In this document: one piece after another, positions 29,552-63,939 of the stretch
Position numbering within the stretch: position 1 is the first letter of the stretch
How the letters are laid out: every line of letters begins with the position of its first letter
DNA from: Candidatus Obscuribacterium magneticum
Lineage (GTDB): Bacteria; Elusimicrobiota; Elusimicrobia; F11
NCBI GenBank assembly: GCA_020523905.1
Contig: JAJAPZ010000003.1
Location: 62,001-126,000 of the forward strand
Length of the DNA: 64,000 nucleotides
Reading direction: 5' to 3'
Translations under genes and position numbers: made by a program
The notes under the pieces: model-generated
Told to the model about the DNA's origin: nothing
Seen by the model: only the letters and a program-made list of their open reading frames with translations
The model's database searches: none

Positions 29552-29694
29552 GACGTCACCCCCGCGTAGGCGGGGGTCCAGACACATCAACAAAGAAAAC
29601 GAGAGCCCTAAAAAGTGTCTGGACCGTGTCACGGAACGGTCCCGTCGATTATTTAAATTATCAAAACGGGATTCCCGCCTTCGCGGGAATGACA
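29552..29694. repeat. Composite REP-like element between ribBA and ribH
   Basis: About 143 bp. Outer palindromic arms at 29552-29580 and 29670-29694 surround the same conserved core as at 26031-26072, here inverted (29621-29662), and a spacer shared inverted with 14768-14790. Spurious open frames run through it on both strands, including a false 70-codon extension of ribH. Confidence 0.8.
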
Positions 29695-29720
29695 GACATT
29701 GCGCACCTGGGCCCACGAAC

Positions 29721-35029: not shown

Positions 35030-37753
35030 ATGAAAGATCTCAGACAGGCGTTTCTCCAGTTCTTCAAGAAGCAAAACCACACCCTTGTCCCGTCCGATTC
35101 CCTCATCCCCTCCAGCGACCCCACGCTCCTTTTTACCTCCGCCGGCATGGTCCAGTTTAAAGCCCATTTCCTGCAGCAAATTCCCCTCACCTTCCGCCGG
35201 GCCGCCTCGAGCCAGCGCTGCTTGCGGACGACCGACATCGATGTGGTCGGCACCACCCCGCGCCACCTCACCTTCTTTGAGATGCTCGGCAACTTCTCCT
35301 TCGGCGATTATTTCAAGGAAGAGGCCATTGCCTGGGGCTGGGAGTTTTTAACCAAGGATTTAAACATCCCGAAGGAGCGGCTCTGGGCCACGGTCTATAA
35401 AGAGGACGACGAGGCCCACGCGATCTGGAAGAAATTAGTTCCCGAATCGAGAATCAGCCGCCTGGGCGAGGACACCAACTTCTGGAACATGGGGCCGACC
35501 GGCCCCTGCGGCCCCTGCTCCGAAATCCATTGGGACTTTGGCTCCGGCCCGACCAAAGGGCCGGACGACTCCGACCGCTGGATGGAGGTGTGGAACCTGG
35601 TCTTCACCCAGTTCGACCGGCAGGCGGACGGGCGGCTCACCCCTTTGCCGAACAAAAACATCGACACCGGCATGGGCCTGGAGCGCCTGACCTCCGTCGT
35701 CGAGGGCGTCTCGGGGGCCTTTGAAACGTCTCTCTTGAAACCTCTGATCAAATTCGGCGAGGAGATGCTGGAGCATAAATACGGAAAAGATTCCAAAAAA
35801 GATGTTTCCCTGCGCATCGTCGCCGATCACCTAAGGGCGGTCACCCTTCTCGTCTTCGACGGCATCCTGCCCTCCAACGAGGGGCGGGGCTACGTCCTAA
35901 GGCGCCTTTTGCGCCGGGCGGTCCGGCAAGGGACGCTCTTCGGGAAAAAGGAACCCTTCCTCTACCGTGGCGTTTCCATCGTCACCGACTATCTGAAAGA
36001 CGCGGCCCTGGGCTTGGTCGAGCGCCGGGAAAGCATCGCCCTCCTCATCAAACAGGAAGAAGAAAGATTTCTGGAAACCGTCGAAACCGGCCTAGGGCGG
36101 CTAAACGAGCTGGTCGACGCCGCCAAAAAAGCAAAGAAAAAAAGGGTCCCGGGGAAGGACGTTTTCCGCCTTTATGACACCTATGGTTTCCCGCCCGAAC
36201 TCACGAAAGAAATCCTGGAGGAATCCAGCATGACATTTGACGAAAAGGAATTTGGCGGCGCCCGCGAAGGGGCGCAACGGCTCGCCCGCGAGGGTTGGAA
36301 AGGCTCCGGCGCCAAGGACGTCGCCGTGTATAACGAGATCCTCAAGAAAATCGGGCCCTCTACCTTCAGGGGCTACGAAACCCTGTCTCTTAAAACTCAA
36401 ATCAGGGCCTTGATAAAAGACGGACAAAGCGTCCCGTCCCTCAAGGCGGGCGAGAAAGGCGAAGTCATCGTTTCCGAAACCCCGTTTTATCCGGAAGGGG
36501 GGGGACAGGTGGGCGACAAAGGGGGAATTCATTCCACCGGCGGTGACGTCGCTGCCTCCGTCCTGAATACCCATAAACCCATCAACGACCTTATCTCCCA
36601 TACCGTCACAGTGCTTTCCCTCCCCCCTGACGGGGGGAGGCCAGGAGGGGGGGCCCCTCCCCTAACCCCTCCCCTTGCGGGGAGGGGAACCGAAAATCTT
36701 GGGGGCCTCTCCGTCGGCGATACGATCGAACTTCGGGTCGACAAAAATCACAGGGAACCGACCATGCGCCATCACACGGCCACGCATCTTCTCCACGCGG
36801 CTTTAAGGAAGGTCCTGGGGCCGCAGGCGACGCAGGCCGGCTCCCTCGTCTCGCCGGAGAAACTTCGGTTCGACTACAGTTACAACAAAGCCCTGGCGCC
36901 GGAGCAGATCAAAGAGATTGAAACCATCGTCAATGAGGCTGTTTTGAAAAATATGAAGGCCACCCCCATTCTCACCACGCCCGAGGCCGCCCGCAAAATG
37001 GGAGCCATGGCTCTTTTCGGTGAAAAATACGGCGACAAGGTCCGCTGCCTCGTCATTTCCGAACACGAGCCCGACGCCCCTGAGAAGGCGTTCAGCCTGG
37101 AGCTGTGCGGGGGAACCCACTGTTCGAGGACGGGCGACATCGGCGCTTTCAAGATCTTGAGCGAAACGTCCATTGCCGCCGGGGCGCGCCGCATCGAAGC
37201 CGTGTCCGGCCTGAAAGCGCTGGAGCATTTCAACAAGAGGGAAGAAGCGCTTCAGGCCCTCTCCGAGAAACTGAAGGCCACGCCTCAAGAGTTGGGAGGC
37301 CGGATTGACAAAATGCTCGAGCGGCAAAAGCAGCTGGAGCAAGAGGTGCGGGACTTAAAAATCAAGCTGGCGCAAGGGGGATCGGGAAGCCCCGGCGCCG
37401 GCGGGCCGGAGATTCAAACCGTGAACGGCATCCCCCTCGCCATCAAGGTGGCGGAGGGCCTTTCCGTCGATGAACTGCGCACCTTGGCCGACCGCTTAAA
37501 GCACGAACTCAAATCCGGCGTCGTCTTTGTCGCCACCACCACCCCAGAGGACGGCCGGGAGAAAGTGTCCTTCGTTTTCGCCGTCACCCCCGACCTCAAG
37601 GAAAAAGGCCTGAACGCCGGCCAGCTCGCCAAGGCGGTGGCGCAAGAGCTCGGCGGCTCCGGCGGCGGCCGCGCCGACTTCGCCCAAGGCGGCGGCCAAG
37701 GAAAGGAAAATCTCCAATCCATCCTGAAAAAAATCCCCTCTCTTATAAAGTAG
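35030..37753 (+). CDS. alaS: Alanyl-tRNA synthetase
   Basis: Charges tRNA-Ala, 907 residues against a usual 870-880. Class II core at the N-terminus (motif 1 TSAGMVQFKAHF, motif 2 RAASSQRCLRTTDIDVVG), editing domain with the zinc ligands HHTATHLLH (about 581-589) and CGGTHC (about 692-697), and a C-terminal C-Ala region with a Gly-rich end. The excess length is explained by about 28 residues (about 530-558) encoded by a palindromic DNA repeat kept in frame just before the editing domain. The first residue of the usual NHTATH is His here. No frameshift is visible. Confidence 0.96.
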   Translation: MKDLRQAFLQFFKKQNHTLVPSDSLIPSSDPTLLFTSAGMVQFKAHFLQQIPLTFRRAASSQRCLRTTDIDVVGTTPRHLTFFEMLGNFSFGDYFKEEAIAWGWEFLTKDLNIPKERLWATVYKEDDEAHAIWKKLVPESRISRLGEDTNFWNMGPTGPCGPCSEIHWDFGSGPTKGPDDSDRWMEVWNLVFTQFDRQADGRLTPLPNKNIDTGMGLERLTSVVEGVSGAFETSLLKPLIKFGEEMLEHKYGKDSKKDVSLRIVADHLRAVTLLVFDGILPSNEGRGYVLRRLLRRAVRQGTLFGKKEPFLYRGVSIVTDYLKDAALGLVERRESIALLIKQEEERFLETVETGLGRLNELVDAAKKAKKKRVPGKDVFRLYDTYGFPPELTKEILEESSMTFDEKEFGGAREGAQRLAREGWKGSGAKDVAVYNEILKKIGPSTFRGYETLSLKTQIRALIKDGQSVPSLKAGEKGEVIVSETPFYPEGGGQVGDKGGIHSTGGDVAASVLNTHKPINDLISHTVTVLSLPPDGGRPGGGAPPLTPPLAGRGTENLGGLSVGDTIELRVDKNHREPTMRHHTATHLLHAALRKVLGPQATQAGSLVSPEKLRFDYSYNKALAPEQIKEIETIVNEAVLKNMKATPILTTPEAARKMGAMALFGEKYGDKVRCLVISEHEPDAPEKAFSLELCGGTHCSRTGDIGAFKILSETSIAAGARRIEAVSGLKALEHFNKREEALQALSEKLKATPQELGGRIDKMLERQKQLEQEVRDLKIKLAQGGSGSPGAGGPEIQTVNGIPLAIKVAEGLSVDELRTLADRLKHELKSGVVFVATTTPEDGREKVSFVFAVTPDLKEKGLNAGQLAKAVAQELGGSGGGRADFAQGGGQGKENLQSILKKIPSLIK
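36618..36690. repeat. Palindromic repeat inserted in frame within alaS
   Basis: Two GC-rich hairpins in coding sequence: CCTCCCCCC/GGGGGGAGG at about 36620-36640 and CCCCTCCCC/GGGGAGGGG at about 36666-36688. They encode a Pro/Gly-rich linker (LPPDGGRPGGGAPPLTPP) absent from typical AlaS. The length is compatible with an intact frame on both sides. Confidence 0.75.
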
Positions 37754-48394: not shown

Positions 48395-50248
48395 CTACAA
48401 CCCGGCGTTATAGATAAGAATGTCCTTAACCCCCGATGAATTGTCAACCTCAATAAAGGGGACAGGGTCGTCTTTCAAGTACACCGGCTTAAGGAGCAAG
48501 GCGGGACTCGATCGGAAGGTTTTTATCCAATGGAATTTCAAGACAACCCGCCCTTTCGACAATTTCTTTATGTCGATCCGATCGTAGTCGAAGGAGAGGT
48601 CCCCGGATCCTTCAACAAACCAGGAGGGAGGCTGCTTTATCCGGTATAAAAAAGTCCCGTCCAGAACTTCCAGGGGCTCCAAAACGGTCGAAAACTTGGC
48701 GAGCACCTTCCGGATTTCCTCCGAGCGAAAGGCAACGACCTGGACATTGTAGAGAGTCAGATAAGACGCGAACACCTCTTCCGTCATGGTTTTCAATTTT
48801 TTAGCGAACGCCTTCGGTTCGTCAGTAACCATCTTAACACCATCAAAATAATGACCGCTAAATACCAGGAATTGTGTGACCATGTGGTTGCCCGGATGGG
48901 GCCCTCCTATGACGGATTGCCCCGTCCAGATTGGGACCAGATCCGAAAAATGCGGCTCCCCTAAACCCCTCGTTTCCATAAGCAACCGCCCAGACGGGGG
49001 ATAATACTCCTTTAAATGCGTCATTAAATTCATTTGATATTCAGGCATCCGGGTCGTCAAGGGGCCCGTCCCTTTTTCCGCCGAATAAGCAAAAGGGGAA
49101 AAAAGGTAAAAGGGAATGAGTGTCGCTAACACACCGGCAAACTTCACTGGCTGTTTTCCTTCAATGAGGGACGACAATGAGAATCCAGCCAGAACACAGA
49201 GAAAGAGCCACAGGAAAAATAGGTTTCGTCCAGGCTGTAACGTATGTATCCAAGGCAGGTGGCTTCCCCAAAAAGAAATAACAGTTAGCCAAATTATCCA
49301 TATCACCATAACGCCGATGCAAGGACGCGGAAAAAATCGCTGTCTCAACGATTGAACAGAGAAAATCAACGTTGCCGCTTGAAACAGAAAATGGGCTGAT
49401 TCGAAAAACGTTGACCCCATGGGAAATATTAGACTCATCAATCCAATGGTACCGGATGACGGAAAATAAGGGGCCTCAGCCCGCCAATTTGAAAAAGCGA
49501 TAAAAGGATGGATCCAATACCAATTGGCCAAAAGGACCACGGCGACGGCACCCGTCAATTTAACCTGATCACGCCAACGGAAAGACCGAAAATAAAAGAA
49601 ATAAAGAAGAAGGTTCGGCACTCCGATCTGGAGCAAGGAAATCGGATGAAGTTGAAAAACCAAGGAACTTGCAAGAGTGAGGAATATCCACGTCTTCCAA
49701 TCCCGTGTTTGGATCCATTTCCATAGGAGACTCACCTGCCACAACGAAAAAAAAGAAGCCACATAAAATCCGAATAGGCCTGCCTGTATGAAGGTTGACA
49801 TGGGCAGCAGAACACCAAGGCCGATCACCAAAAGTCCAAATGTAACCCACGACATCTTTGTGCTTCCGCCAAAATTGCGGACAGTATGAATCATTAAAAA
49901 AGGGGCCAATGCGATACCGAGTAATTCAATAAATAAGAGGGACCTACTAACCGGGATGAAACCTGAAAAGCAGTGACAGACCAGGCCTATAAGATAATTT
50001 CCAACTTCAAAAAGGCCGTCAATCATCCCTGCCGATTGGAAGGGATCATACCCCCAAAAGTGATGAGACCGGGTGAAAAATTCATGCGCCCGTAGAGCCC
50101 GCGCGTAATACTGGATGTAATCGAAATTAACGAGGGGCAGGTTTGACGTAAAGTCAATCTTTCTAAACCAGAAGGCTATCTTCAGGAAGTGCAGGGCGAT
50201 GAGGTACAAATACCAGTGATTCCGAAAAAATCTCCGCAGCCAATGCAT
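48395..50248 (-). CDS. Large multi-spanning membrane protein, GT-C/PTPS-related-like (paralog 1)
   Basis: A 617-residue protein with about a dozen hydrophobic segments and a soluble C-terminal domain. It shares with the genes at 52196 and 54176 the N-terminal signature YYARALRAHEFFTRS and FWGYDPFQSAG, and the C-terminal LKDDPVPFIEVDNSSG and IYNAGL end. The YYxRA/GYDPF loop after the first membrane helix recalls the acidic first loop of GT-C glycosyltransferases, but the catalytic Asp/Glu pair is not certain. Function unknown; transfer of sugar to a surface structure is an inference. Start overlaps the upstream stop as TGATG. Confidence 0.75.
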   Translation of the reverse strand: MHWLRRFFRNHWYLYLIALHFLKIAFWFRKIDFTSNLPLVNFDYIQYYARALRAHEFFTRSHHFWGYDPFQSAGMIDGLFEVGNYLIGLVCHCFSGFIPVSRSLLFIELLGIALAPFLMIHTVRNFGGSTKMSWVTFGLLVIGLGVLLPMSTFIQAGLFGFYVASFFSLWQVSLLWKWIQTRDWKTWIFLTLASSLVFQLHPISLLQIGVPNLLLYFFYFRSFRWRDQVKLTGAVAVVLLANWYWIHPFIAFSNWRAEAPYFPSSGTIGLMSLIFPMGSTFFESAHFLFQAATLIFSVQSLRQRFFPRPCIGVMVIWIIWLTVISFWGSHLPWIHTLQPGRNLFFLWLFLCVLAGFSLSSLIEGKQPVKFAGVLATLIPFYLFSPFAYSAEKGTGPLTTRMPEYQMNLMTHLKEYYPPSGRLLMETRGLGEPHFSDLVPIWTGQSVIGGPHPGNHMVTQFLVFSGHYFDGVKMVTDEPKAFAKKLKTMTEEVFASYLTLYNVQVVAFRSEEIRKVLAKFSTVLEPLEVLDGTFLYRIKQPPSWFVEGSGDLSFDYDRIDIKKLSKGRVVLKFHWIKTFRSSPALLLKPVYLKDDPVPFIEVDNSSGVKDILIYNAGL

Positions 50249-52164
50249 CAGGTTTTATTCGTTATGATGATGCGTTTGAGGTGAGTGACGTTGATCAACG
50301 AGATGAAGGGAGTCGGATCATTCCCCACTTTCTTCGGCCGTATCTGAACGCCGAAAGGGGCTTGAAGCACATCGTTCCAATGGTATTTAAGAAGGATTTT
50401 CCCTCGGTTGGGGTTTTGAATTTCAATCCGATTGTAGCCCGCTTTCACGTGTCCTGAGCCCTCCAAAATATAATCCGGTGAATAACTAATGACCCTGTAG
50501 ATGCGATAGGGATCGGCTTGGGGCGGATAAAAAGGTTTGCCTTCCTTTTTTATGGGTGGTTTATATCTCTTTTGAAACAAAGGACGGAAATCGTTGGGAT
50601 ACCGGTCAAATTGGGACCGTGCCTGGAGTGAGAAAGCCACCACATAAACCACGTTATACTGATACAAGACCTTCACAAGATTGTCCTGATTGTAAGCTGA
50701 CAGGGGCGCCCCAAAAAGCATGGGCGGATGGCCGTTTATCTTGGCGGTGAAGCTCACCGATTTCTCTACGGATGTATACGGATCGTAGGTTGGAATACCG
50801 ATGAACTCAAGGCCCGTCCACAAAGGTAAAACATCATACTTATCATAATCCTGGCTTGTCACTTCATACAGGACTCGCCCATCGCGCGGTAAATGCTTCA
50901 ACATGCTAACGAGAGAGTTCGGTCTCCCAGGGAGGCTTTCCCTATAATCATTGAAGCCAGAGAGATTTCCCGGCAGCTGCCAGGTCATCTGGAACCAGAC
51001 AAACCAGAGTAGATATATCATCCAAACGCTTTTCGTTTCAATGACTTTCTTCGACAAGTAAATGCTCGCCGGGATAATGAGAACCAAAATGAGGGGGAAA
51101 ACGTATCGAAAGGGATCCCAATTGAATGTATATGAAATTTTCCCGACAATCCATGCAAAGGGGATCAGAAACAATACCCAAAGAAAAAATAGCCACGCCT
51201 GATTCTTCTTTTCCTTCCAAAATGTCCAGATCCCTCCGCAAAAAGACACCAAAATGAAAAACCGAATCAGAATCCCGGTCCACTCGTCCCGCCCCATATG
51301 AAAGGGACGGAAGCTCAGAAAAGCCGCCAACAATGGCCAGTTCACCAAATAAGGGATCAACAAGCTTGCCGAGACGGCCACCCGCCCCTTCGACCTTAGT
51401 GCGGTCCAATGGCTCATAAAAATCGCTCCGAGCGGCACAAGGAGAATGACAAGAAGGATCGGATATAAATACCCCACAAAAGTGAAAGTCATCGAAAATA
51501 GAATGAGATGGAATATTAAACGATCCAGTGGATTATTATCATCGCGGACTTGATCTGACAGCACTTTAAAAAATTGGCTGATGCAGAAGACGGAGAGGAA
51601 GCTGGCAAAGACAAATGGCACCAACTTCCACGGGACAAACCACGAGAAGAAATCGGAATTCGCCAATGCGGCCACCCCCAACGCCATCGCCAAAAGGGAA
51701 GCCGGTTGGTTTCCGCCGAAATTCCGACAGGTCCTATACAAGAGAAGAGGGGAAACCAAAAAACATAAAAAGAAAGTGAGAAATAGTAAGCGGGCCACCG
51801 ACATCCACCGGCCCACCAGTCGATCCACAAACATCGTAAACCTCGCCCTGTCATCCAAAGAAACATTGAACGATGCGCCAGCCCGATGATAGGGATCGTA
51901 GCCCGTACCTTTCCCACTGGCTTTTCTCATCAATCGATTCCTCAATACACTGGCATATTCAAAACTATAATTGGTTGAAATAAAATTACTTGGTTTGAAA
52001 AAATATTCCACCGGAAGAAGCCGTGACACTTTGACTAAATGAAGGCAATAAATCAGGACAAAAACCAATGCCACCCGAAAAGGGACCGAAATCTGTTTCT
52101 TCAGAAACTCAAAAAATGTTTCACTTCGTTCCTTCAAACCAATCTCGGGCGTTGGGCTATCCAC
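50248..52164 (-). CDS. Large multi-spanning membrane protein, divergent relative (paralog 2)
   Basis: A 638-residue protein with the same plan (about a dozen hydrophobic segments, beta-rich C-terminal domain), the loop GTGYDPYHRAGASFNVS (about 86-102) where the others have GYDPF, RTCRNFGGNQPASLLAMALG and the C-terminal LEGSGHVKAGYNRIEIQNPNRG, GKILLKYHWNDVLQAPFGV. It lacks the RAHEFF and IYNAGL motifs. The stop overlaps the start of the next gene by one base. Function unknown. Confidence 0.7.
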   Translation of the reverse strand: MDSPTPEIGLKERSETFFEFLKKQISVPFRVALVFVLIYCLHLVKVSRLLPVEYFFKPSNFISTNYSFEYASVLRNRLMRKASGKGTGYDPYHRAGASFNVSLDDRARFTMFVDRLVGRWMSVARLLFLTFFLCFLVSPLLLYRTCRNFGGNQPASLLAMALGVAALANSDFFSWFVPWKLVPFVFASFLSVFCISQFFKVLSDQVRDDNNPLDRLIFHLILFSMTFTFVGYLYPILLVILLVPLGAIFMSHWTALRSKGRVAVSASLLIPYLVNWPLLAAFLSFRPFHMGRDEWTGILIRFFILVSFCGGIWTFWKEKKNQAWLFFLWVLFLIPFAWIVGKISYTFNWDPFRYVFPLILVLIIPASIYLSKKVIETKSVWMIYLLWFVWFQMTWQLPGNLSGFNDYRESLPGRPNSLVSMLKHLPRDGRVLYEVTSQDYDKYDVLPLWTGLEFIGIPTYDPYTSVEKSVSFTAKINGHPPMLFGAPLSAYNQDNLVKVLYQYNVVYVVAFSLQARSQFDRYPNDFRPLFQKRYKPPIKKEGKPFYPPQADPYRIYRVISYSPDYILEGSGHVKAGYNRIEIQNPNRGKILLKYHWNDVLQAPFGVQIRPKKVGNDPTPFISLINVTHLKRIIITNKT

Positions 52165-52195
52165 TCTGCTACCTCCTATCAGTCAATCGGTGATT

Positions 52196-54052
52196 TCACA
52201 ATCCCGCATTATAGATGACAATATCTTTTGCGCCAACAGAGTTATCAACCTCAATAAAGGGAACGGGATCATCCATCAGCCATCGCGGTCGGATGGGGAC
52301 AGAAGGACGGGTTTTAAACGTTTTTATCCAATGGGATTTTATAACGAGAATACCCTTCGAAGCACCGCGAATCGTAAGTTTGTCGTAATCCATCGCTAAA
52401 TTACCATTCCCCTGAATAAACCAATTGAAATTGCCTTTAACTTGATAAAAGTTATGATCTCCAATTTTAACTGGAGAAAATAGAATTCCAGAGTGTCTGT
52501 TGAGAATCCGGATGGATTGCTTTGACCATGCCGCGATATTAGAAACGTTGTAAAGGCGGAGATAGGCGGCAAATTTTTTTTCGTCAATGTCTGACAAGTG
52601 CTTGCCAAACGCAACGGGTTTGTCCGTAAAGGAACCATTGTCTTCAATACAATTATTCATGAATTTGGTAAATCGCGTAATCAAATAGTTTGAGGGAAGG
52701 TCGCCGCCAAGTAGAGGTTGCCCAGTAAGTATAGGTATAATTTCAGAAAAATGAGGGTAGCAGTTCGGCCGATCCCCACATTCGAGGAGTAATCGTCCCG
52801 GCAATGGTTTCTCAACTTTAATGTAATTGATAACTGTTTGGAGGTCCTTAGGAAATTCGGAGAAATAACATACGGGATTAAACCATAGCAGACATACTGG
52901 AAGAGCGAGTGGGATTAAAAAAACTAACGATTTTCTAATAGTGGAAGTATCTAGGGACAAGGAAACAACACCTGCACCAAGTAGCCAAAACGGCAATAAA
53001 TACCGGAGTGGTTGAAGACCAGCAATCTTCGGAATATGACTTCCCAAAAATGGGAAAACAGCCAATCCCATTAACCAAATAGCCAATAGGACGGATTTGG
53101 AGGCAGAATGTTTGGATAACTTTACCAGGAAAAAGCACGGCATAACCACCGTTATAATATTTGCAACAGATCGAAGAGAGTCTTCCCATCGAGTTTGAAT
53201 CGGAGAATAATGGGTGATCAAGTCACGCAAATTAAAAGAAGGCAAATAAGGACTTGGCAATATCCAATCGTAAAAGGCGATTAGGGGTTTTATCCAATAC
53301 CAGTTACTGATGAAAAATATTAATACTGAGATGGAAAGAAATATGTGATGTTTAAATTTAAGAGTACGTGCAAAATAAAGATAGATTGACAAAAATGGAA
53401 TAATGACAATGAAAAGAGACGAGGGATGAAGCTGAAAAATAACGGAGATGCCCGCTGTCAATAATAGCCATGAAATAAATCCCTTTTTAACCATCCATTT
53501 CCAGAAAACACTTACAATCCATAAACCAAGAAAACTACTAATGAAAAAAGTGAAGAGGCATCCCGGAATCCACCATGCTGTAGAAAAATCCAACCCCCCG
53601 AACATAAGGATGCAAATGGCGAACGCGAGGCGCCCTTGGTCACGGGTTCCACCAAAATTACGAACAAATGAAATCATCAAAAAGGGACAAAGAAAGAAAC
53701 CGATAAACACAGCCATAAGAAGCGTTTTGTCGATGGTAAGAATACTGGACAAAAGATGAGCCAAGAGACTCGTAAAAATATTTCCAACTTCATGGATGGG
53801 GCCGGAGATATATCCGGCCATCTCAAAAGGATCGTACCCCCAAAAACGCCCTGATCGGATAAAGAATTCGTGTGTACGAATGGCGCGGGTGTAGTATAAA
53901 ACGAAGTCGGTATTTAGTATGGGATAACCAGAAGAGAAATTTATCTTATGGAATCGCCATATCCAGTGCACGCTATGCAGAAACACAAAAAAATAAAACC
54001 AATGATTTTCCGCCAGTTTTTTAAGCCGCTCGATACGATTGGGGTTAATCAT
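52196..54052 (-). CDS. Large multi-spanning membrane protein (paralog 3)
   Basis: 618 residues with start at 54052, chosen because MINPNRIERLKKLAENHWFY aligns with the N-termini of the other paralogs; an earlier ATG at 54097 adds 15 unlike residues. It has YYTRAIRTHEFFIRS, GRFWGYDPFEMAGYI and the C-terminal DDPVPFIEVDNSVG and IYNAGL. Very close to the gene at 54176 in the first 110 residues. More AT-rich than the housekeeping genes. Function unknown. Confidence 0.72.
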   Translation of the reverse strand: MINPNRIERLKKLAENHWFYFFVFLHSVHWIWRFHKINFSSGYPILNTDFVLYYTRAIRTHEFFIRSGRFWGYDPFEMAGYISGPIHEVGNIFTSLLAHLLSSILTIDKTLLMAVFIGFFLCPFLMISFVRNFGGTRDQGRLAFAICILMFGGLDFSTAWWIPGCLFTFFISSFLGLWIVSVFWKWMVKKGFISWLLLTAGISVIFQLHPSSLFIVIIPFLSIYLYFARTLKFKHHIFLSISVLIFFISNWYWIKPLIAFYDWILPSPYLPSFNLRDLITHYSPIQTRWEDSLRSVANIITVVMPCFFLVKLSKHSASKSVLLAIWLMGLAVFPFLGSHIPKIAGLQPLRYLLPFWLLGAGVVSLSLDTSTIRKSLVFLIPLALPVCLLWFNPVCYFSEFPKDLQTVINYIKVEKPLPGRLLLECGDRPNCYPHFSEIIPILTGQPLLGGDLPSNYLITRFTKFMNNCIEDNGSFTDKPVAFGKHLSDIDEKKFAAYLRLYNVSNIAAWSKQSIRILNRHSGILFSPVKIGDHNFYQVKGNFNWFIQGNGNLAMDYDKLTIRGASKGILVIKSHWIKTFKTRPSVPIRPRWLMDDPVPFIEVDNSVGAKDIVIYNAGL

Positions 54053-54175
54053 ATTAGACCATCTCATCTGACACACGTGACCGAAGTACACTTTCATGCT
54101 ATCATCAAATTTCGACCTGGAACACTTATAATATAATCTCTTCGCTTGACAAGATTACACCGTTAGCGGACATTC
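54053..54175. promoter_or_regulatory. Divergent promoter region between paralogs 3 and 4
   Basis: A short AT-rich gap separates two divergent membrane protein genes. Two overlapping TATAAT boxes on the + strand (54127-54132 and 54132-54137) lie 40-50 bases before the ATG at 54176. No matching -35 is visible. Confidence 0.35.
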
Positions 54176-56005
54176 ATGAAAATCTTCAACAGATTAATTC
54201 GCGATCATTGGTATTGGTTCTTCATTTTATTACACATCATTAAGTGGGGGTATAAATTCCTCCCCTTAAACTTATCCTCCGGCTTCCCGATTCTAAATTG
54301 TGATTATATGCTTTATTACACGCGAGCTTTGCGGACCCACGAATTCTTTATTCGATCGGGACGTTTTTGGGGGTACGATCCTTTTGAGATGGCTGGATAT
54401 ATCTCCGGCCCCATCCATGAAGGTGGTAGCATATTCACCAGCATTGCTTCACATCTCCTATCATATTTCATACCTATCTCAAAGACGCTCTTATCCATTG
54501 AACTCGCATATTTCTTTTTAGCGCCGTTTTTCATCATCCTTTTCATTCGCAATTGGGGGGGAACTCGCGAGCAATCGTGGATCGGTTTCGGAATATGCAC
54601 TTTAATGTTCTGCGGTTTGTCCTTTTGGGACAATTTGTACGGTCTCCTGGGGTTTCAACTTAGTTGTTTTATGGGGTTATGGTTGGTCAGCTTTTTCTGG
54701 AAATGGATTGGGAAAGGAGACCTAAAATCCTGGGCTATCCTAACGATCGGCTTATCCGTTATTTTCCAAATTCATCCAGCCACCTTACTTATCATAGGAG
54801 TGCCGATGGCATTGATTTACTTCATAAATAGTCGCACTCTAAAATTATATCAACATGCGTTGATAGGGGTGACCGGAATTATCGTTTTAGTGGCAAATTT
54901 ATATTGGATTAAGCCTTATCTGGCTTTTAAGGATTGGCAGACGATAACACCTTATTACATGACGTTAAGTTTAAAGAATTTAGTTAATTTTCACGGGCCG
55001 ATTCAGGAGTATTGGGGTAATTCAGTCCGTAGAGTCGTATCTTACCTTCTAATTTATTTATCAATCCGCGCCCTTCTAAAAATACACTCGACCTCGCCGG
55101 CAAAGGCATGGGTTCTGATCTCATGGGCCTCTTTTCTGGCGATCATCAGCTTATTGGGTAGCCACCTTCCTTTCATCCGCAATCAGCAGCCTCACCGGTT
55201 CCTCATACCATTATTTTTGTTGTTGACTGGAATCAGTCCTTTCGCGCTAGACGCCTTCTTGCTTCTTCGTAAAAAAACCATGGCGTTCATCTTACCCTTT
55301 GTCCTGGTGTTCGCTATTCTGTGGTTTCCAAATCTTTCCTTTCAATTCGACCTTACCCAAAATCAAAAAGAATTCATCAAACACGTAAAGAGAATAAGTC
55401 CTCTCCCCGGCCGGTTATTAATCGAATGTGCCGAAAAGAGCACGGCTCATTTTTCCGACTATATCCCCTTCACTTCGGGACAGTTGATCCTCGGTGGAAG
55501 CAATCCGGGTAACTTTTTGCGAACAAAATTCACCGTTTTCAAAGGGAACTATTCCGATGGTTTTAGATCCGTAGAAAATCGCCCCATGGTATTCGATCGA
55601 TTATTGTCGGAATTTAACGAAGAGAAATTCATGTCTTATTTGGACCTATATAACGTGTCAAACATCGCTGCTTGGTCCTCAAAGTCCACCGAAATACTAA
55701 ACAGTTTCGTTAAAATCCTTTCCTATGAGGGGCGGTTTGGCGATCACAATTTTTACAAAGTTAAGCGAAAATCCAATTGGTTCTTTGTGGGAAGTGGTGA
55801 TCTAAGAATGGAGTACGACAAACTGTTCGTGAAGAGGGCATCAACGGGCCGCATTGTCATCAAATCACACTGGATCAATACTTTCAAATGCAATCCCCCA
55901 TTACCAATAAAACCCGTTTATCTCAAAGACGATCCCGTTCCTTTTATATCCATCGATAATTCAACGGGAATTGAAAATATTGAAATTTTCAACGCTGGTT
56001 TATAA
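54176..56005 (+). CDS. Large multi-spanning membrane protein (paralog 4)
   Basis: 609 residues, divergent from the three minus-strand relatives. N-terminus NRLIRDHWYWFFILLHIIKW, then YYTRALRTHEFFIRSGRF and WGYDPFEMAGYISGPIH, which is nearly identical to the gene at 52196. The C-terminal half ends DDPVPFISIDNSTG and IFNAGL. AT-rich like its neighbours, which suggests the array was acquired or duplicated locally. No clear ribosome site. Function unknown. Confidence 0.74.
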   Translation: MKIFNRLIRDHWYWFFILLHIIKWGYKFLPLNLSSGFPILNCDYMLYYTRALRTHEFFIRSGRFWGYDPFEMAGYISGPIHEGGSIFTSIASHLLSYFIPISKTLLSIELAYFFLAPFFIILFIRNWGGTREQSWIGFGICTLMFCGLSFWDNLYGLLGFQLSCFMGLWLVSFFWKWIGKGDLKSWAILTIGLSVIFQIHPATLLIIGVPMALIYFINSRTLKLYQHALIGVTGIIVLVANLYWIKPYLAFKDWQTITPYYMTLSLKNLVNFHGPIQEYWGNSVRRVVSYLLIYLSIRALLKIHSTSPAKAWVLISWASFLAIISLLGSHLPFIRNQQPHRFLIPLFLLLTGISPFALDAFLLLRKKTMAFILPFVLVFAILWFPNLSFQFDLTQNQKEFIKHVKRISPLPGRLLIECAEKSTAHFSDYIPFTSGQLILGGSNPGNFLRTKFTVFKGNYSDGFRSVENRPMVFDRLLSEFNEEKFMSYLDLYNVSNIAAWSSKSTEILNSFVKILSYEGRFGDHNFYKVKRKSNWFFVGSGDLRMEYDKLFVKRASTGRIVIKSHWINTFKCNPPLPIKPVYLKDDPVPFISIDNSTGIENIEIFNAGL

Positions 56006-58489: not shown

Positions 58490-58534
58490 CGGCCTTGCCG
58501 GCGGGCCTGCGCCAATACCGCTCCCACCAAAGAC

Positions 58535-58579
58535 GTTCTCGTGATGAAACGGATATCATGGAAGCCGTCGAAACTTTCT
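58535..58579 (+). pseudogene. 5' tRNA-Arg-like fragment (decayed)
   Basis: About 45 bases aligning with the first half of the tRNA-Arg at 60675: the D-arm core GAAACGGATATCA is identical and a 5' arm reads GTTCTCG. An anticodon-like loop reads CGTCGAA (TCG). The 3' half, with T-arm and closing acceptor strand, is missing, so it cannot be a functional tRNA. Confidence 0.6.
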
Positions 58580-58610
58580 TCGCAGTGGACGCGGGACATT
58601 GAAGAGCGAT

Positions 58611-58642
58611 CCCATAATGGGTACAATCAAACCCATTATGGG
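58611..58642 (+). promoter_or_regulatory. Inverted operator-like repeat before the HTH-nucleotidyltransferase gene
   Basis: CCCATAATGGGT (58611-58622) and its inverted copy ACCCATTATGGG (58631-58642) are separated by eight bases. Each is itself nearly palindromic. Since the gene product has a winged helix, autorepression at this site is plausible. CATAAT or CATTAT inside could be a -10 box. Confidence 0.6.
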
Positions 58643-58664
58643 TACGCCCCCTGTGGATGCGCAA

Positions 58665-59249
58665 ATGGCCTCCGCTTTGTTCGGCAAGAGCCGCCGGGCC
58701 GTCCTGGGCCTTCTCTACGGCCATGCGGACCAATCCTTCTATGTTCGCCAAATTGTGCGGTCTGTGGGGCTGGGGCAAGGGACGGTCCAACGAGAGTTGG
58801 CCCGCCTGGCCGCGGCGGGGATATTGAGTCAGAGGCACGAGGGGAATCAAGTTTATTTCCAAGCCAACCCTCAGTCTCCCGTTTTTCCCGAGTTAAAGTC
58901 CCTGGTCGTCAAAACTATGGGGGTGGGGGATGTCTTACAATTCGGCCTTCAGAAACTGGCGAGCCGGATCAACGTCGCCTTTGTCTACGGCTCGCTGGCG
59001 TCTGGAAAGGAATCAAGAAAAAGCGATGTGGACCTGATGGTGGTGGGGAAAGTGACGTTCGGGGAAGTGGCCGCCGCCTTAAATTCAGCTCAGGAATCCA
59101 TCGGGAGAGAGGTCAATGCGTCCGTTTATTCTCCCACGGATTTTAAAAAGAAACTGAAGACAGGCCATCATTTTTTAACGGCCCTCCTCCCATCACCCAA
59201 AATTTTCCTCATCGGAGACCAGCGTGAGCTTGAGAAATTGGGGTCGTAA
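58665..59249 (+). CDS. Winged-helix/nucleotidyltransferase (MNT) fusion, antitoxin-like
   Basis: 194 residues: an N-terminal winged helix (about 1-75, SRRAVLGLLYGHADQSFYV, RELARLAAAGIL) and a C-terminal minimal nucleotidyltransferase domain with GSLASGKESRKSDVDLMVVG (about 108-127), the GSxxxG...DxD motif. In type VII systems MNT proteins neutralise HEPN partners by attaching AMP. ATG 58665 is chosen because upstream codons lie within the operator repeat; ATG 58638 and TTG 58599 are in frame. It overlaps the HEPN-like gene by 26 bases. Confidence 0.78.
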   Translation: MASALFGKSRRAVLGLLYGHADQSFYVRQIVRSVGLGQGTVQRELARLAAAGILSQRHEGNQVYFQANPQSPVFPELKSLVVKTMGVGDVLQFGLQKLASRINVAFVYGSLASGKESRKSDVDLMVVGKVTFGEVAAALNSAQESIGREVNASVYSPTDFKKKLKTGHHFLTALLPSPKIFLIGDQRELEKLGS

Positions 59250-59664
59250 CGGGTGGATCCAGCCACACAAAACGTCAAAGGAAGAAATTTCCGATTTATT
59301 GGGGCTGGCCGAGAGGGATCTTAAAGACTGTCATACCAAGGGTTTGAGCAACGATTGGCGCCTCAATATTGCGTACAACGCGGCTCTTCAGGTCGCGACG
59401 GCAGCTTTGGCCGCCAGCGGTTATCGAGCCTCTCGGGAGGCCCACCATTACCGAGTCATTCAAAGCCTCGCTTTCACCTTGCAAGCGGAAAAAGATTGGG
59501 TGATCCGGCTGGACGGGTTTCGAAAGAAACGAAACATCAGCGACTATGAGCGGTCGGGGCTTGTGTCGGATCAAGAAGTGGATGAAATGATGGAACTGGC
59601 TCAGGATCTGAAGGATCAGGTATTGGAATATCTCCGGAGATCGCATCCCAATCTTGTTGAATAG
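59224..59664 (+). CDS. HEPN-domain protein, partner of the upstream nucleotidyltransferase
   Basis: 146 residues of mostly helical HEPN-like protein: LAERDLKDCHTKGLSNDWRL, YNAALQVATAALAASGYR and the C-terminal DGFRKKRNISDYERSG (about 96-111). In many HEPN RNases an Rx4-6H motif sits here; this one has RN..DY with no His, so RNase activity is not assured. GTG start with GGAG six bases upstream, inside the nucleotidyltransferase 3' end. The pair forms one transcription unit. Confidence 0.75.
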   Translation: MSLRNWGRNGWIQPHKTSKEEISDLLGLAERDLKDCHTKGLSNDWRLNIAYNAALQVATAALAASGYRASREAHHYRVIQSLAFTLQAEKDWVIRLDGFRKKRNISDYERSGLVSDQEVDEMMELAQDLKDQVLEYLRRSHPNLVE

Positions 59665-59686
59665 GAGGATGTCGACGTTCAATGTC

Positions 59687-59758
59687 GTGCTCGTGGTGAA
59701 ACGGATATCACGGGAGCTTCCGGAGCTCTGTCCTTAAGTTCAAGTCCCCGTGAGCATA
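59687..59758 (+). pseudogene. Decayed copy of tRNA-Arg(CCG)
   Basis: 72 bases collinear with the intact tRNA at 60675: the first 25 bases are identical and the anticodon loop still reads TTCCGGA (CCG). The acceptor stem closes with two G-T pairs, but the T-stem (TTAAG against CCCCG) no longer pairs. A tRNA pseudogene is the best reading. Confidence 0.75.
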
Positions 59759-59880
59759 CCTTCATTTGCCAGAAAAAAACAACTTCATTATTAACCAAAG
59801 ACCACGGCGGAGAAGCCGATTGTCCCAAAATTGCTACAATGCCAAAGGGTGTTGAGACGTCAGCACCAAAAAGGACGCAC

Positions 59881-60225
59881 ATGTTTAAGCTAAAGAAAAC
59901 CGGTATGAAGGAAATTCAAAGAGAGCTGAAGAGAGTTGCCCGACGTCTCATCCGTAATTATAAGCCAGAGAAAATCATTTTATTCGGTTCACTGGCCAGC
60001 GGGCGCACAAAGGCGTGGAGCGATATTGATTTAGCCATCATTAAGAAAAGCCGCCGCCGCTTTATTGATCGTCTTGGTGATGCTCTTATCGCCGCCAACC
60101 CCAAAGAGGCCGTCGACATCTTTGTGTACACTCCTGAAGAAGTTGCGACGATGGAGAAACAAAAAAACTCTTTTTGGATCCATGAAATCATCGGCCGAGG
60201 AAAAGTCCTTTACCAACGCGGTTGA
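59881..60225 (+). CDS. Minimal nucleotidyltransferase (MNT), antitoxin-like
   Basis: 114 residues with IILFGSLASGRTKAWSDIDLAII (about 33-55 in parts), the GSxxxG...DxD nucleotidyltransferase motif, and a C-terminal KEAVDIFVYTPEEVATM. The ATG at 59881 is chosen because AAAAGGA precedes it by five bases; the earlier ATG adds 14 residues of no known pattern. Its last 44 bases overlap the HEPN gene that follows. Predicted antitoxin/AMPylase of an MNT-HEPN pair. Confidence 0.8.
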   Translation: MFKLKKTGMKEIQRELKRVARRLIRNYKPEKIILFGSLASGRTKAWSDIDLAIIKKSRRRFIDRLGDALIAANPKEAVDIFVYTPEEVATMEKQKNSFWIHEIIGRGKVLYQRG

Positions 60226-60628
60226 AGTTTGGCTGACCTTTGCCCATGACGATGCGCGGGCAGCCAAAAATCTTTTTTCAGCGGAAATCTGGAATTTGGT
60301 TTGTTTCCATGCCCAACAAGCTACAGAGAAAGCGTTAAAGGCGTTCTTACGAATGCACATGGACCAAATCCCAAGAGTCCATTCGCTAGCTAAACTTACA
60401 GAACTCTGTTCCAAGATTGATCGGACATTCCTGCGCCACAAACAAATAGCCCTTCTTCTCGATCGGTTTTATATCCCAACACGTTATCCAGAAGCAGCAC
60501 CAGGGTCCTTGCCCGAAGGCCTTCCAGGAAGAGACGACGCCAAAGTTGCGATTCAACATATGAAACGTGTTCTAAAACACGTCTCAAAACGTCTGGCGGG
60601 ATATGGTAAAACACCGCTTGGGTTCTAA
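60182..60628 (+). CDS. HEPN-domain protein (PF05168 type)
   Basis: 148 residues: VEVWLTFAHDDARAAKNLF, CFHAQQATEKALKAFLRMH (about 47-65), the PRVHSLAKLTELC stretch and a RFYIPTRYPEA segment are typical of PF05168 HEPN proteins. No clear Rx4-6H motif is present. The start lies within the upstream nucleotidyltransferase gene, a frequent arrangement in MNT/HEPN pairs. The tRNA-Arg gene follows 46 bases after the stop. Confidence 0.78.
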   Translation: MKSSAEEKSFTNAVEVWLTFAHDDARAAKNLFSAEIWNLVCFHAQQATEKALKAFLRMHMDQIPRVHSLAKLTELCSKIDRTFLRHKQIALLLDRFYIPTRYPEAAPGSLPEGLPGRDDAKVAIQHMKRVLKHVSKRLAGYGKTPLGF

Positions 60629-60674
60629 CGAACCGTCCTGCTCACTCTTTGAAGCTGTCGGATAAAACCCTTTT

Positions 60675-60746
60675 GTGCTCGTGGTGAAACGGATATCACT
60701 GGAGCCTCCGGAGCTCCCGTTCTGGGTTCGAGTCCCAGCGAGCACG
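60675..60746 (+). tRNA. tRNA-Arg (anticodon CCG)
   Basis: A 72-base cloverleaf. Acceptor stem GTGCTCG/CGAGCAC with discriminator G, D-stem GTGA/TCAC, anticodon stem GGAGC/GCTCC with loop CTCCGGA (anticodon CCG), T-stem CTGGG/CCCAG with loop TTCGAGT. All stems pair fully. The CCA end is not encoded. It lies inside the nucleotidyltransferase/HEPN island, and two decayed relatives lie upstream at 58535 and 59687. Confidence 0.93.
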
Positions 60747-60876: not shown

Positions 60877-61245
60877 GTGGTAGATATTGAGAATATGAAC
60901 CAGGAAGAGTGGGAACCCCTCATAAACAGGATTATCTTAAAGCACGTCGATCCAAAAGAAACGCTGGTCTTTCTTTTTGGATCCCGTGCCAGGGGAGGTT
61001 TCCATCGGGCGGCTGACTATGATGTCGGGCTCTATAACACAAAGAAAATCCCCTTGGCCACCATCGCAAAAATTAAAGATGAATTGGAAGACCACCCCAT
61101 CCCCGTCGACGTCGACATCGTCGACTTCTCTTCCGTTCCCGAAGAATTCAAAAGGCTCGCCCTGAAGGAGGTAAAAATATGGAACCAACCGAAGAAAAAC
61201 TTAAAGCTGACCTCATCCTCCTCGAAAAAGCCGTTGGAACGTTAG
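60877..61245 (+). CDS. Minimal nucleotidyltransferase (MNT), HI0073-like
   Basis: 122 residues with LVFLFGSRARGGFHRAADYDVGLY (in parts about 30-53), the nucleotidyltransferase motif with DYDV as the DxD pair. The C-terminus VDVDIVDFSSVPEEF resembles HI0073-type antitoxins. The GTG start at 60877 gives the longest form; ATG 60895 is an alternative and neither has a good ribosome site. The next gene starts within its 3' end (67-base overlap) with its own strong ribosome site, matching the HI0073/HI0074 pair plan. Confidence 0.78.
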   Translation: MVDIENMNQEEWEPLINRIILKHVDPKETLVFLFGSRARGGFHRAADYDVGLYNTKKIPLATIAKIKDELEDHPIPVDVDIVDFSSVPEEFKRLALKEVKIWNQPKKNLKLTSSSSKKPLER

Positions 61246-61574
61246 AAGAAGCATTAAAAGCGACGTGGACGGATCTGGTGAGAGACGCCGTCATCCAACG
61301 GTTTGAGTATGTTTTTGAGCTGGCTTGGAAATCAATTAAAGCGGCCGCCCAGTATATGGGGACGGCCTGCAACAGCCCGCGGGAAGCCGTCCGGATCGCT
61401 TATAAAATGGGATGGATTGACGACACGGACGCCTGGTTTGAAGCGATGGAAGCCAGAAACAAGACGTCCCACATCTACGATGAAAACACAGCCGGCGAGG
61501 TTTACAACGTTGCGAAAAAATACCCGAAATTAATCCGGCCTCTCCTCATCTCGCTCAAAGGATTGAAAGAATAA
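61179..61574 (+). CDS. HI0074-like nucleotidyltransferase substrate-binding/HEPN protein
   Basis: 131 residues: DAVIQRFEYVFELAWKSIKA (about 35-54) and NSPREAVRIAYKMGWIDD, then the motif ARNKTSHIYDENTA (about 91-104), which contains R-x4-H followed by Tyr, the HEPN RNase signature. Of the four HEPN-type proteins in this island it is the only one with a clear Rx4HxY. AAGGAGGT lies six bases before the ATG. Forms a pair with the upstream nucleotidyltransferase. Confidence 0.85.
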   Translation: MEPTEEKLKADLILLEKAVGTLEEALKATWTDLVRDAVIQRFEYVFELAWKSIKAAAQYMGTACNSPREAVRIAYKMGWIDDTDAWFEAMEARNKTSHIYDENTAGEVYNVAKKYPKLIRPLLISLKGLKE

Positions 61575-61581
61575 AGGACTC

Positions 61582-61610
61582 TTGTCAGAGTGGTACACAA
61601 GTGTTACACT
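61582..61610 (+). promoter_or_regulatory. Promoter and palindromic operator of the RelBE-like pair
   Basis: TTGTCA (61582-61587) and TACACT (61605-61610) are 17 bases apart, 20 bases before the antitoxin ATG. AGTGTTACACT (61600-61610) is a perfect 11 bp palindrome covering the -10 box, so antitoxin binding would block transcription. Confidence 0.6.
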
Positions 61611-61629
61611 CGTTTTACGGAGGATTCAA

Positions 61630-61881
61630 ATGCCGGCGAGAAACCCAAGAATTAACGTCGTTCTCGAAGAACCTATTTACAAAGCGATCGCCAATTTGGC
61701 GCGCCACGACAGGGTTTCCCTCTCTCTTAAAGTCAGGGATTTAATCCGGGAAGCTCTTGAAATTCACGAAGACAGGGTCCTTTCACGCATCGCGGAAGGA
61801 CGCGAGAAAACGTTTGAGAGATCCCATGCCCTCAGCCATGATGCGGTATGGGGATCGCTCAAATACAAGAAAGCCGCGTGA
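61630..61881 (+). CDS. Ribbon-helix-helix antitoxin (RelB/CopG-like)
   Basis: 83 residues. The N-terminal ribbon-helix-helix reads RINVVLEEPIYKAIANLA then VSLSLKVRDLIREALEI (about 7-44); the acidic/basic C-terminal tail (RILSRIAEG-like RVLSRIAEGREKTFERS) would wrap the toxin. GGAGG lies six bases before the ATG. The stop overlaps the toxin start (GTGA). Confidence 0.82.
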   Translation: MPARNPRINVVLEEPIYKAIANLARHDRVSLSLKVRDLIREALEIHEDRVLSRIAEGREKTFERSHALSHDAVWGSLKYKKAA

Positions 61882-62162
61882 CATTTCAGCTTCTCTACCA
61901 TCCTCACGTTGCCCGGGATTTAAAACATATAAGCACCGCTATAAAGTTTCGCATTGAATCCGCCCTGACTTCAAAATTGGCCGTTGCACCTGAAATCTTT
62001 GGGAAACCACTCTCCGGTAGCTTGGGGGGATATTGGAAACTTCGAGTAGGGGATTATCGAGTCGTCTTTAAAGTGGTCAAAAACGAAATCTGGATCTTAG
62101 CCGTTATCCACCGAAGCATTGTTTACAGGGATGCCTTAAAACGGCTATTGTGGAACCCTTAA
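61878..62162 (+). CDS. RelE/ParE-family toxin
   Basis: 94 residues with the RelE fold pattern: QLLYHPHVARDLKHIS, PLSGSLGGYWKLRVGDYRVVFKV (in parts about 46-68) and IWILAVIHRSIVY. GxxxLRVGDYRVVF-type core is characteristic of ribosome-dependent mRNA interferases and ParE relatives; which of the two is not decidable by eye. GTG start overlapping the antitoxin stop. Downstream is an imperfect hairpin (62166-62191) without a T-run. Confidence 0.82.
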   Translation: MTFQLLYHPHVARDLKHISTAIKFRIESALTSKLAVAPEIFGKPLSGSLGGYWKLRVGDYRVVFKVVKNEIWILAVIHRSIVYRDALKRLLWNP

Positions 62163-62218: not shown

Positions 62219-62536
62219 ATGATGAGTATAAATGAAATACTGAAAGACTTTCGCAGCCGAATTGCATCCCTCTACGGAAGCCGATTAAAAGAACTCATCC
62301 TTTATGGCTCTTGGGCCAGGGGTCGGGCTACGCCGGATTCCGATATTGATGTCGTGGTCCAGTTGGAAGGAAAAATAAGGGCCGGTGAAGAAATCGACAG
62401 AATGATTGACATTATCACGGATTTAAATCTGAAATATGGGGTGTTACTTTCTGTCTATCCCGTCTCAACGGCCGATTACTCAACCGTGAAAAGTCCCTTG
62501 CTTCTGAATGTTTTAAGGGAAGGGAAGGCAGTGTGA
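62219..62536 (+). CDS. Minimal nucleotidyltransferase (MNT), antitoxin-like
   Basis: 105 residues: LILYGSWARGRATPDSDIDVVVQ (about 26-48 in parts) is the nucleotidyltransferase motif, followed by a short C-terminal region (LSVYPVSTADYSTVKSPL). GGAG lies six bases before the first of two consecutive ATG codons. Its stop overlaps the HEPN gene start as GTGA. Fourth such pair in the island. Confidence 0.82.
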   Translation: MMSINEILKDFRSRIASLYGSRLKELILYGSWARGRATPDSDIDVVVQLEGKIRAGEEIDRMIDIITDLNLKYGVLLSVYPVSTADYSTVKSPLLLNVLREGKAV

Positions 62537-62919
62537 AAGAAATCGATTCGCTTATCAAACGAGCGAAAAGATATCTTGAAAGCGCCGAACTTCTCTACCG
62601 AGCCGGGGACTATGAGTCCTCGGTATCTAGAATTTACTATGCCATGTTCTATGCGGTTGAGGCGGTTCTATTAAAAAATAATTTATCGTATTCATCTCAT
62701 AAGGCCGTCATTTCCGCTTTTGGAGAACGTTTTATCAAAACAGGCGTCTTCCCCAAGGAAATGGGGCGGGAGTTGAACAGAGCTTTCGAGAAAAGGCAGC
62801 TCAGCGACTATGAATATGATTTTGTGATTTCTGAAGAAGAGACTGTGAATATTCTCAAAAGCAGCCAGAGTTTCGTTGAGAAAATCGCCCAGCACCTCTC
62901 AATGGCTGATTCTGGTTGA
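62533..62919 (+). CDS. HEPN-domain protein (PF05168 type)
   Basis: 128 residues: IKRAKRYLESAELLYRAGDY, SRIYYAMFYAVEAVLLKNN (about 32-50), SSHKAVISAFGERFIKTG and AFEKRQLSDYEYDF (about 89-102), the standard HEPN antitoxin-partner pattern. R..SDY replaces the Rx4-6H motif. GTG start coupled to the nucleotidyltransferase by four bases. Last gene of the island. Confidence 0.82.
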   Translation: MKEIDSLIKRAKRYLESAELLYRAGDYESSVSRIYYAMFYAVEAVLLKNNLSYSSHKAVISAFGERFIKTGVFPKEMGRELNRAFEKRQLSDYEYDFVISEEETVNILKSSQSFVEKIAQHLSMADSG

Positions 62920-62925: not shown

Positions 62926-63939
62926 ATGATTATCGGGCTCACCGGGAAAAATGCATCAGGGAAGGGGGAGGTGGCGTCCTACCTCAAGTTGCGGGGGTTC
63001 CGCACGTTCTCGCTCTCCGACGTCCTGCGGGATGAACTGAAAAAACGGAAGAAGCCCGTCACGCGGGACAACCTCACCTGGTTCGGCAACAAACTTCGGG
63101 ACGACTTCGGCCCCTCGGTCCTCGCCGACAAAATCCTCGACCAATTGGAAGACGACCGGCAATACGTCGTGGACAGCTTCCGCAATCCTGAGGAAGTGAA
63201 GGCCTTTCGGCGCACCAAGGATTTCGTCCTTTTCTCCATTGAAGCCAGCCAGAAAGTCCGCTTCCAACGCATTCGAAAACGAAACCGGGAAAAGGACGCC
63301 CGGACGCTGGAGGAATTCATCCGGCACGAAAACCGCGAGATCACCAGCGCCGACCCCACGAAACAAAACCTTGAGGCCTGCGCGAGGCTGGCGGACGTTC
63401 ACTTGGACAACAGCGGCACCATCGACGATCTCTATAAGTCGCTCGACAAAATCTTCGCCAAAATCCTCATGCACCGGCCCCGGCCTTCCTGGGACGAGTA
63501 TTTCATGAAAATCGCCAAGGTGGTGGCCATGCGATCCAACTGCATGAAACGGAAAGTGGCCGCCGTCATCGTCAAGGAAGGGCGGATCATCTCCACCGGC
63601 TACAACGGAACCCCCCGCGGGATCAAAAACTGCAACGAGGGCGGCTGCCGGCGCTGCAACGCCTTCAAGCCGAGCGGCCAACATTTAAGCGAATGCACCT
63701 GCTCGCACGCCGAGGAAAACGCCATCGTGCAGGCGGCCTATCACGGGATCAGCATCAAAGGCTCCGTCCTCTACTCCACCTACGCCCCCTGCCTTCTTTG
63801 CACAAAAATGATCATCAACGCCGGCCTCCAGGAGGTCGTCTACAACGAGGCGTATCCCTTGGGAGATGAGTCCATCGCGCTTCTTAAAGAGGCGGACATC
63901 AAGGTGAGGAAATACACGACAAAGCCCGCCAACTCTTAA
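62926..63939 (+). CDS. P-loop nucleotide kinase/dCMP deaminase fusion
   Basis: 337 residues. N-terminal P-loop kinase-like domain (about 1-185): Walker A GLTGKNASGKGEV (about 4-16), a dephospho-CoA-kinase/nucleotide-kinase-like layout with VVDSFRNPEEV. C-terminal cytidine/deoxycytidylate deaminase domain (about 188-337): zinc site CSHAEENAIVQAA with the catalytic Glu, and PCLLCTKMIINAG; an extra Cys-rich loop CNEGGCRRC precedes it. Predicted to make dUMP from dCMP for dTTP synthesis, with the kinase half possibly phosphorylating the same nucleotide pool. The fused arrangement is known from eukaryotic and some bacterial enzymes. ATG 62926 is chosen over a TTG two codons upstream. Confidence 0.85.
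   Translation: MIIGLTGKNASGKGEVASYLKLRGFRTFSLSDVLRDELKKRKKPVTRDNLTWFGNKLRDDFGPSVLADKILDQLEDDRQYVVDSFRNPEEVKAFRRTKDFVLFSIEASQKVRFQRIRKRNREKDARTLEEFIRHENREITSADPTKQNLEACARLADVHLDNSGTIDDLYKSLDKIFAKILMHRPRPSWDEYFMKIAKVVAMRSNCMKRKVAAVIVKEGRIISTGYNGTPRGIKNCNEGGCRRCNAFKPSGQHLSECTCSHAEENAIVQAAYHGISIKGSVLYSTYAPCLLCTKMIINAGLQEVVYNEAYPLGDESIALLKEADIKVRKYTTKPANS

Follow-up and report, generated by a model that had tools for sequence, protein, structure and literature searches.

Scars of probable tRNA-gene integration around stacked toxin-antitoxin pairs at tRNA-Arg(CCG) in Candidatus Obscuribacterium magneticum

In the genome of Candidatus Obscuribacterium magneticum, an intact tRNA-Arg(CCG) gene stands downstream of a decayed copy of itself and of a still shorter piece, and each of the two intervals bounded in this way holds a single toxin-antitoxin-like module. 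The locus raises the question of whether the modules arrived together with the tRNA copies and, if they did, by which route. We analysed a window of 64,000 nucleotides from this metagenome-assembled genome (G000; 71% complete, 13% contaminated) and compared it with G001 and G002, two members of the same family that belong to other genera.

The tRNA copies and the modules between them

Rfam, ARAGORN and alignment bore out what an earlier note on this DNA had read from the letters, namely an intact tRNA, a decayed full-length copy and a 5' fragment, here called C, B and A and all on the plus strand; the start spacings given there, 1152 and 988, were correct. Copy C (60675-60746) scores 55.1 bits against an Rfam tRNA cut-off of 29 and is called tRNA-Arg(ccg) by ARAGORN. 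Copy B (59687-59758), described as a pseudo-tRNA with a broken T-stem, proved to be one when its folding was checked, with 28.0 bits, just below the cut-off, and three of the five T-stem pairs broken, so that it has neither the covariance score nor the intact T-stem of a functional tRNA; ARAGORN still reports it as a tRNA despite this score. The prediction in the note that C alone would be charged agrees with the covariance scores. B and C are 85% identical across nt 1-71, their homology starting exactly at tRNA nt 1 and stopping at nt 70/71, and pairwise comparison of the flanks gave no match beyond the tRNA ends. Copy A (58528-58573) is a displaced 5' half and the most decayed of the three. 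Its similarity to C spans 58535-58566 (88% over 33 nt, E ~4e-5 in 64 kb) and its similarity to B spans 58528-58566 (38 nt), breaking off where the anticodon loop starts; the half had thus been recognised correctly, with a 3' end (58579) placed slightly beyond the point at which similarity stops. No flank homology extends between A, B and C, and no other repeat joins the three intervals.

Exactly one MNT/HEPN-type module lies in each interval, as the note had claimed and as PADLOC, Pfam and the GSx9DxD motif agree. Module 1, between A and B, consists of an MNT protein with a winged-helix and a nucleotidyltransferase part (58599-59249; GSx9DxD, PDC-M05A-like), whose true start is probably near 58654, and of a HEPN-like protein with an RKKRNISDY motif (PDC-M05B, 59224-59664). 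PADLOC matched both proteins (PDC-M05A, E = 8e-75; PDC-M05B, E = 9e-60); Pfam recognised the nucleotidyltransferase alone, the HEPN-like partner being seen by PADLOC only. Module 2, between B and C, joins an antitoxin-like nucleotidyltransferase of the MNT type with GSx9DxD (59839-60225) to a toxin-like HEPN protein (60182-60628, start codon approximate) that matches PF05168 at 88.7 bits (4e-25). All four genes are on the plus strand, and in both modules a GSx9-10DxD MNT stands beside a HEPN protein in one operon, the arrangement by which HEPN/MNT modules are defined; on the strength of these motifs and profile matches, both are predicted to be HEPN/MNT toxin-antitoxin pairs. Like type VII HEPN/MNT and the PADLOC candidate PDC-M05, they combine an MNT carrying GSx9DxD with a HEPN or HEPN-like partner; unlike those families, they sit between tRNA pieces. 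The intervals are almost exactly filled, with the stop of the module 1 HEPN-like gene 22 nt before B and that of the module 2 HEPN gene 46 nt before C. A promoter scan from module 2 to C gave nothing strong. No PF00589 integrase, nor any integrase remnant, was found on the window's contig (C71), in agreement with the earlier statement that none is nearby, and no arm repeats were visible following A or B.

An inserted region and its empty sites in relatives

In both G001 and G002, alaS, tRNA-Arg(CCG) and the dCMP deaminase gene are adjacent, separated by gaps of ~12-50 nt, with one tRNA and no modules; in G001, ligA and purH stand before this group. In the window, ligA, purH and alaS (35030-37753) end at 37.75 kb and the deaminase gene (62926-63936) begins at 62.9 kb, and since the two genes are adjacent in the relatives we conclude that ~25 kb was inserted here. 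This variable region (37754-62919), missing in both relatives, carries A, B and C close to its right end. Empty sites with a single tRNA, as expected for a tRNA-anchored island and as the earlier note had proposed to look for, are thus present in G001 and G002; because these are other genera, they do not locate the breakpoints with single-base precision. A contig scan for a same-genus empty site, with the deaminase as query, returned distant relatives only (at most 59% identity across the full protein), and the first six of these had no tRNA.

Downstream of C we found three further toxin-antitoxin-like pairs that were absent from the earlier note, all on the plus strand and all without a tRNA piece: a third module, made of an MNT and an HI0074-type substrate-binding protein of HEPN fold (60877-61574), an RHH-like plus ParE/RelE-like pair (61582-62162), and an MNT/HEPN module between ParE and the dCMP deaminase gene (62219-62919). 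PIN/RHH and AbiEi-like genes, likewise absent from that note and without a tRNA piece, follow alaS at 37.8-40.9 kb. The inserted region also contains a cluster of four multi-pass membrane proteins of ~610-640 aa (48395-56005; three on the minus and one on the plus strand) that look like paralogs. Insertions within alaS itself, and within a lumazine-synthase-like ORF (29511-30152), encode palindromic-repeat-like peptides, e.g. SPPRRRGSRHINK...DSRLRGNDR.

Displaced tRNA halves elsewhere, their cargo and their integrases

Each tRNA of G000, G001 and G002 was searched against its own locus at E<=1e-4, with dinucleotide-shuffled tRNAs as control. The search, which covered tRNA neighbourhoods and would miss pieces beyond a few kb, gave 24 remnant matches (7 in G000, 15 in G001 and 2 in G002), compared with none per replicate for the shuffled tRNAs. 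A few of the 24 are near full length or short, and some repeat one place. All 14 unambiguous halves lay on the side expected from integration, 5' halves upstream and 3' halves downstream, and one additional copy, of tRNA-Ala(GGC) in G001, was inverted. Displaced halves occur at about ten other tRNAs in G000 and one family-mate, and the longer ones break in the anticodon loop, with 5' halves comprising nt 1-38/41 and 3' halves running from nt 32/33 to the end. For example, tRNA-Glu(CTC) is followed by 1.87 kb holding one AAA/DUF4143 gene and then by an exact 43-nt 3' half. Within 1.0 kb of G001, a 41-nt 5' half of tRNA-Leu(TAA) precedes a RelE-like toxin, its HI1420-type antidote and the intact tRNA, the toxin having no Pfam match and owing its RelE-like name to its sequence and its partner. 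In G021, from a different family, a single MNT/HEPN pair lies between tRNA-Glu(TTC) and a 3' piece of 26 nt, the whole spanning 1.05 kb. Scars on the 5' side are unusually frequent in this clade, where they bound six of nine intervals of at least 0.9 kb compared with 159 of the 3919 tRNA/tmRNA-gene islands in Islander (PMC4383910; Fisher p ~4e-7), a comparison between differing methods in that an integrase is required by Islander and not here.

Elements that keep an integrase are found at other tRNAs of the family. On contig C82 of G000 (20214-27507, L251), a 7.2-kb element lies at tRNA-Tyr: an exact 39-nt 5' half stands 7.2 kb upstream of the intact tRNA, a tyrosine integrase gene (PF00589) abuts that tRNA, the arm-like repeat TTAGCACAAATTTAGCACA lies just inside each end, and the cargo includes small lipoprotein-like genes. 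Its topology is that of A, module 1 and the following tRNA copy. The plan is repeated in G001 by an element at tRNA-Ser(GGA), with a 5' half, a truncated integrase, a YhcG-type nuclease and its own matching end repeats, and in G002 an integrase gene adjoins the 5' end of tRNA-Gly. These three anatomies establish that integrases in the 5'-side tRNA configuration exist in the family; the integrases do not form one tight group. Contig C82 additionally carries an inverted second copy of the element (integrase at 71931-72401), perhaps an assembly artefact.

Other tRNA arrangements in these genomes deserve mention. Two genera have inserts at tRNA-Ser(TGA) (L129:2795-3014 and L194:2976-3170; G000 and G001) that agree over the ~100 bases directly following the 5' half (z=17) and carry different cargo, EamA/methyltransferase in one and an SDR oxidoreductase in the other; an att-like left end of this kind was not found for A or B. 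At four loci (L203, L173, L179 and L114; G000/G001/G002), tRNA pseudo-copies have a palindrome of the TCCGCC-N-GGCGGA type in place of the anticodon arm, and the palindrome TCCGCCGCGGCGGA is also dispersed through G000 and G002. At tRNA-Arg(ACG) on contig C44 of G000 (L114:3640-7604), three near-full-length copies stand in tandem, one decayed, one insert-bearing with a ~49-nt GC-rich palindrome replacing the anticodon arm, and one intact. Methyltransferase, tadA-like and NTase genes separate the copies, and another tadA follows the intact one; this array looks like a segmental duplication.

The earlier note had suggested that insertion of the modules was tied to the tRNA. A tie to the tRNA gene is supported by the empty sites, by the halves on the expected side and by the C82 element; a tie specific to MNT/HEPN modules is not. 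We rejected the latter after a survey across the class in which 30 PF05168 loci and 30 response-regulator loci were searched for a tRNA or tRNA piece within 1.5 kb: three of the former had an intact tRNA (with a weaker 3' piece at one of the three) and one had a separate fragment at E<=1e-5, two of the latter had an intact tRNA and one had a fragment, this being a tRNA truncated where the locus ended, and enrichment at the PF05168 loci was not significant. Of 20 close homologs of the modules, 3 (in G021, G114 and G095) have a tRNA piece nearby, which is only suggestive of a link between module and tRNA. Modules without flanking tRNA fragments, which the note had named as evidence against its insertion link, are therefore what most homologs present; they speak against a module-specific link and leave a mechanism based on a tRNA hotspot unrefuted. 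Taken together with the mixed cargo at other tRNAs (methyltransferases, the AAA/DUF4143 gene, a YhcG-type nuclease and the RelE-like pair), these homologs indicate that the link is with the tRNA hotspot and not with the type of module, toxin-antitoxin pairs being a common but not exclusive cargo.

Probable integration at the anticodon loop, and competing accounts

We interpret A and B as scars left when elements integrated one after another, site-specifically and mostly on the 5' side, at the anticodon loop of tRNA-Arg(CCG), a reading to which we assign a probability of about 0.6. Its observed basis consists of the scars, the empty sites, the recurrence at other tRNAs and, in G000, the intact element with an integrase and matching topology; from these we infer that integration made A and B, that the integrase was lost or supplied in trans, and in which order events took place. 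An ancestral tRNA-Arg(CCG) between alaS and the dCMP-deaminase gene would have been struck repeatedly by integrative elements, the circle of each recombining at the anticodon-loop region of the tRNA, a step whose anatomy is seen at tRNA-Tyr and others. Judging from that anatomy, the old 5' half would stay upstream, and downstream an intact tRNA would be restored with a 5' half that the element brought. The integrase genes would later have been lost, or would never have been present where an integrase acted in trans, and the toxin-antitoxin cargo would have been retained since its loss is costly, as for addictive genes. That toxin-antitoxin pairs persist for this reason is an established idea for such modules. 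The remnants would then be left to the decay that A and B display, with A as the oldest scar, B as a later one and C as the working gene. In an alignment of the anticodon stem, A retains the ancestral A, as in both family-mates, and a derived G-C pair is common to B and C; an older A and a surviving C would fit these bases, at very few sites, and also the decay of A.

Viewed as a possible tandem array, the locus has a tRNA piece for each member, no integrase and a B of full length. Half-site integration leaves halves, and in its simple form it does not account for such a B; its source may be tRNA duplication, homologous recombination through the tRNA, or an element that brought a complete tRNA with it. 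Our estimate is held at 0.6 by this full-length copy together with the occurrence of duplication in G000. Also counter to integration are the lack of visible arm repeats after A or B and of an integrase or its remnant on the contig, the size of the intervals, at ~1 kb far below that usual for islands, and the three modules that follow C without a tRNA piece.

In a first rival account, the tRNA would have been duplicated segmentally or in tandem, modules would then have inserted independently between copies, and the tRNAs made redundant would have decayed. Such a history would yield a full-length B directly and has a parallel in the tRNA-Arg(ACG) triplet of G000, where 35 nt of upstream flank are common to two copies and a tadA duplicate lies nearby; it also agrees with the derived bases common to B and C, which would make these two recent sisters. 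We nevertheless consider duplication unlikely, given that B/C homology ends exactly at the tRNA ends, with flanks and modules unrelated, and that A is a half stopping at the anticodon loop, as halves do at several other tRNAs. Homologous recombination of the Campbell type, in which circles bearing one tRNA and cargo cross over within the 72-bp tRNA to give tRNA-cargo-tRNA without flank homology, accounts well for a full-length B whose flanks are unrelated to those of C, but it should not produce halves with constant anticodon-loop breakpoints, of which A is one among many, and 72 bp is short for homologous recombination, so that we judge it less probable still. The poorest candidate, and in our view a highly improbable one, is that the events were unrelated and modules gathered in a permissive intergenic region that happened to hold tRNA pseudogenes: modules without tRNA pieces directly after alaS and after C, and most module homologs elsewhere, are what it would lead one to expect, whereas the almost exactly filled intervals and the recurrence of tRNA, one pair and tRNA piece at tRNA-Leu (G001) and tRNA-Glu (G021) are not.

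Integration at the anticodon loop could also take a narrower form, which we put forward as a doubtful proposal: the intervals would be minimal ~1 kb one-operon mobile cassettes without a recombinase, bounded by tRNA, mobilised in trans by tRNA-targeting tyrosine integrases that larger elements encode, and accumulated at one tRNA in an integron-like manner, with toxin-antitoxin pairs as frequent cargo. The Prochlorococcus Tycheposons likewise carry cargo and are linked to tRNA genes, and some of them have no recombinase of their own; they are larger than the window intervals and not confined to toxin-antitoxin cargo. The locus shares with Islander islands an intact tRNA at one end and a displaced fragment at the other, on the correct side and in the correct orientation (A is a 5' half upstream of C on the same strand), and an anticodon-loop subsite; tandem arrays at one tRNA are known in Islander, with three or more members in 4 (PMC4383910). 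Unlike those islands, its intervals are ~1 kb long and lack the integrase that Islander requires, one remnant is full length, and 5' fragments dominate. It likewise resembles tRNA gene fragments described as attachment-site remnants of mobile elements mis-scored as tRNAs (PMC9897764), in that its partial copies appear to be made by integration and B is called a tRNA by ARAGORN, but it has one module per interval in place of the 9-23 kb or more of element DNA in those examples. Among known cases of tRNA-anchored integration, the locus represents a variant, set apart by its 5'-side bias, its ~1-kb integrase-free intervals and its stacked toxin-antitoxin cargo.

A tRNA pseudogene pair here becomes a readable insertion history, in which the position and decay of the pieces suggest the order of module arrival, and an integrase for the 5'-side site is now on offer for direct study. 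Integrase-free tRNA cassettes of 1 kb may be either remnants or active passengers. As a warning, tRNA finders list such remnants as genes. Two minor observations concern tRNA genes outside the window: a second, different tRNA-Arg(CCG) in G000 lies on contig C112 (L133:4807-4878), possibly a contaminant, and contig C3 of G001 carries at 52.8-65.4 kb (L185) a dense array of ~20 lower-scoring tRNA genes, possibly of phage origin.
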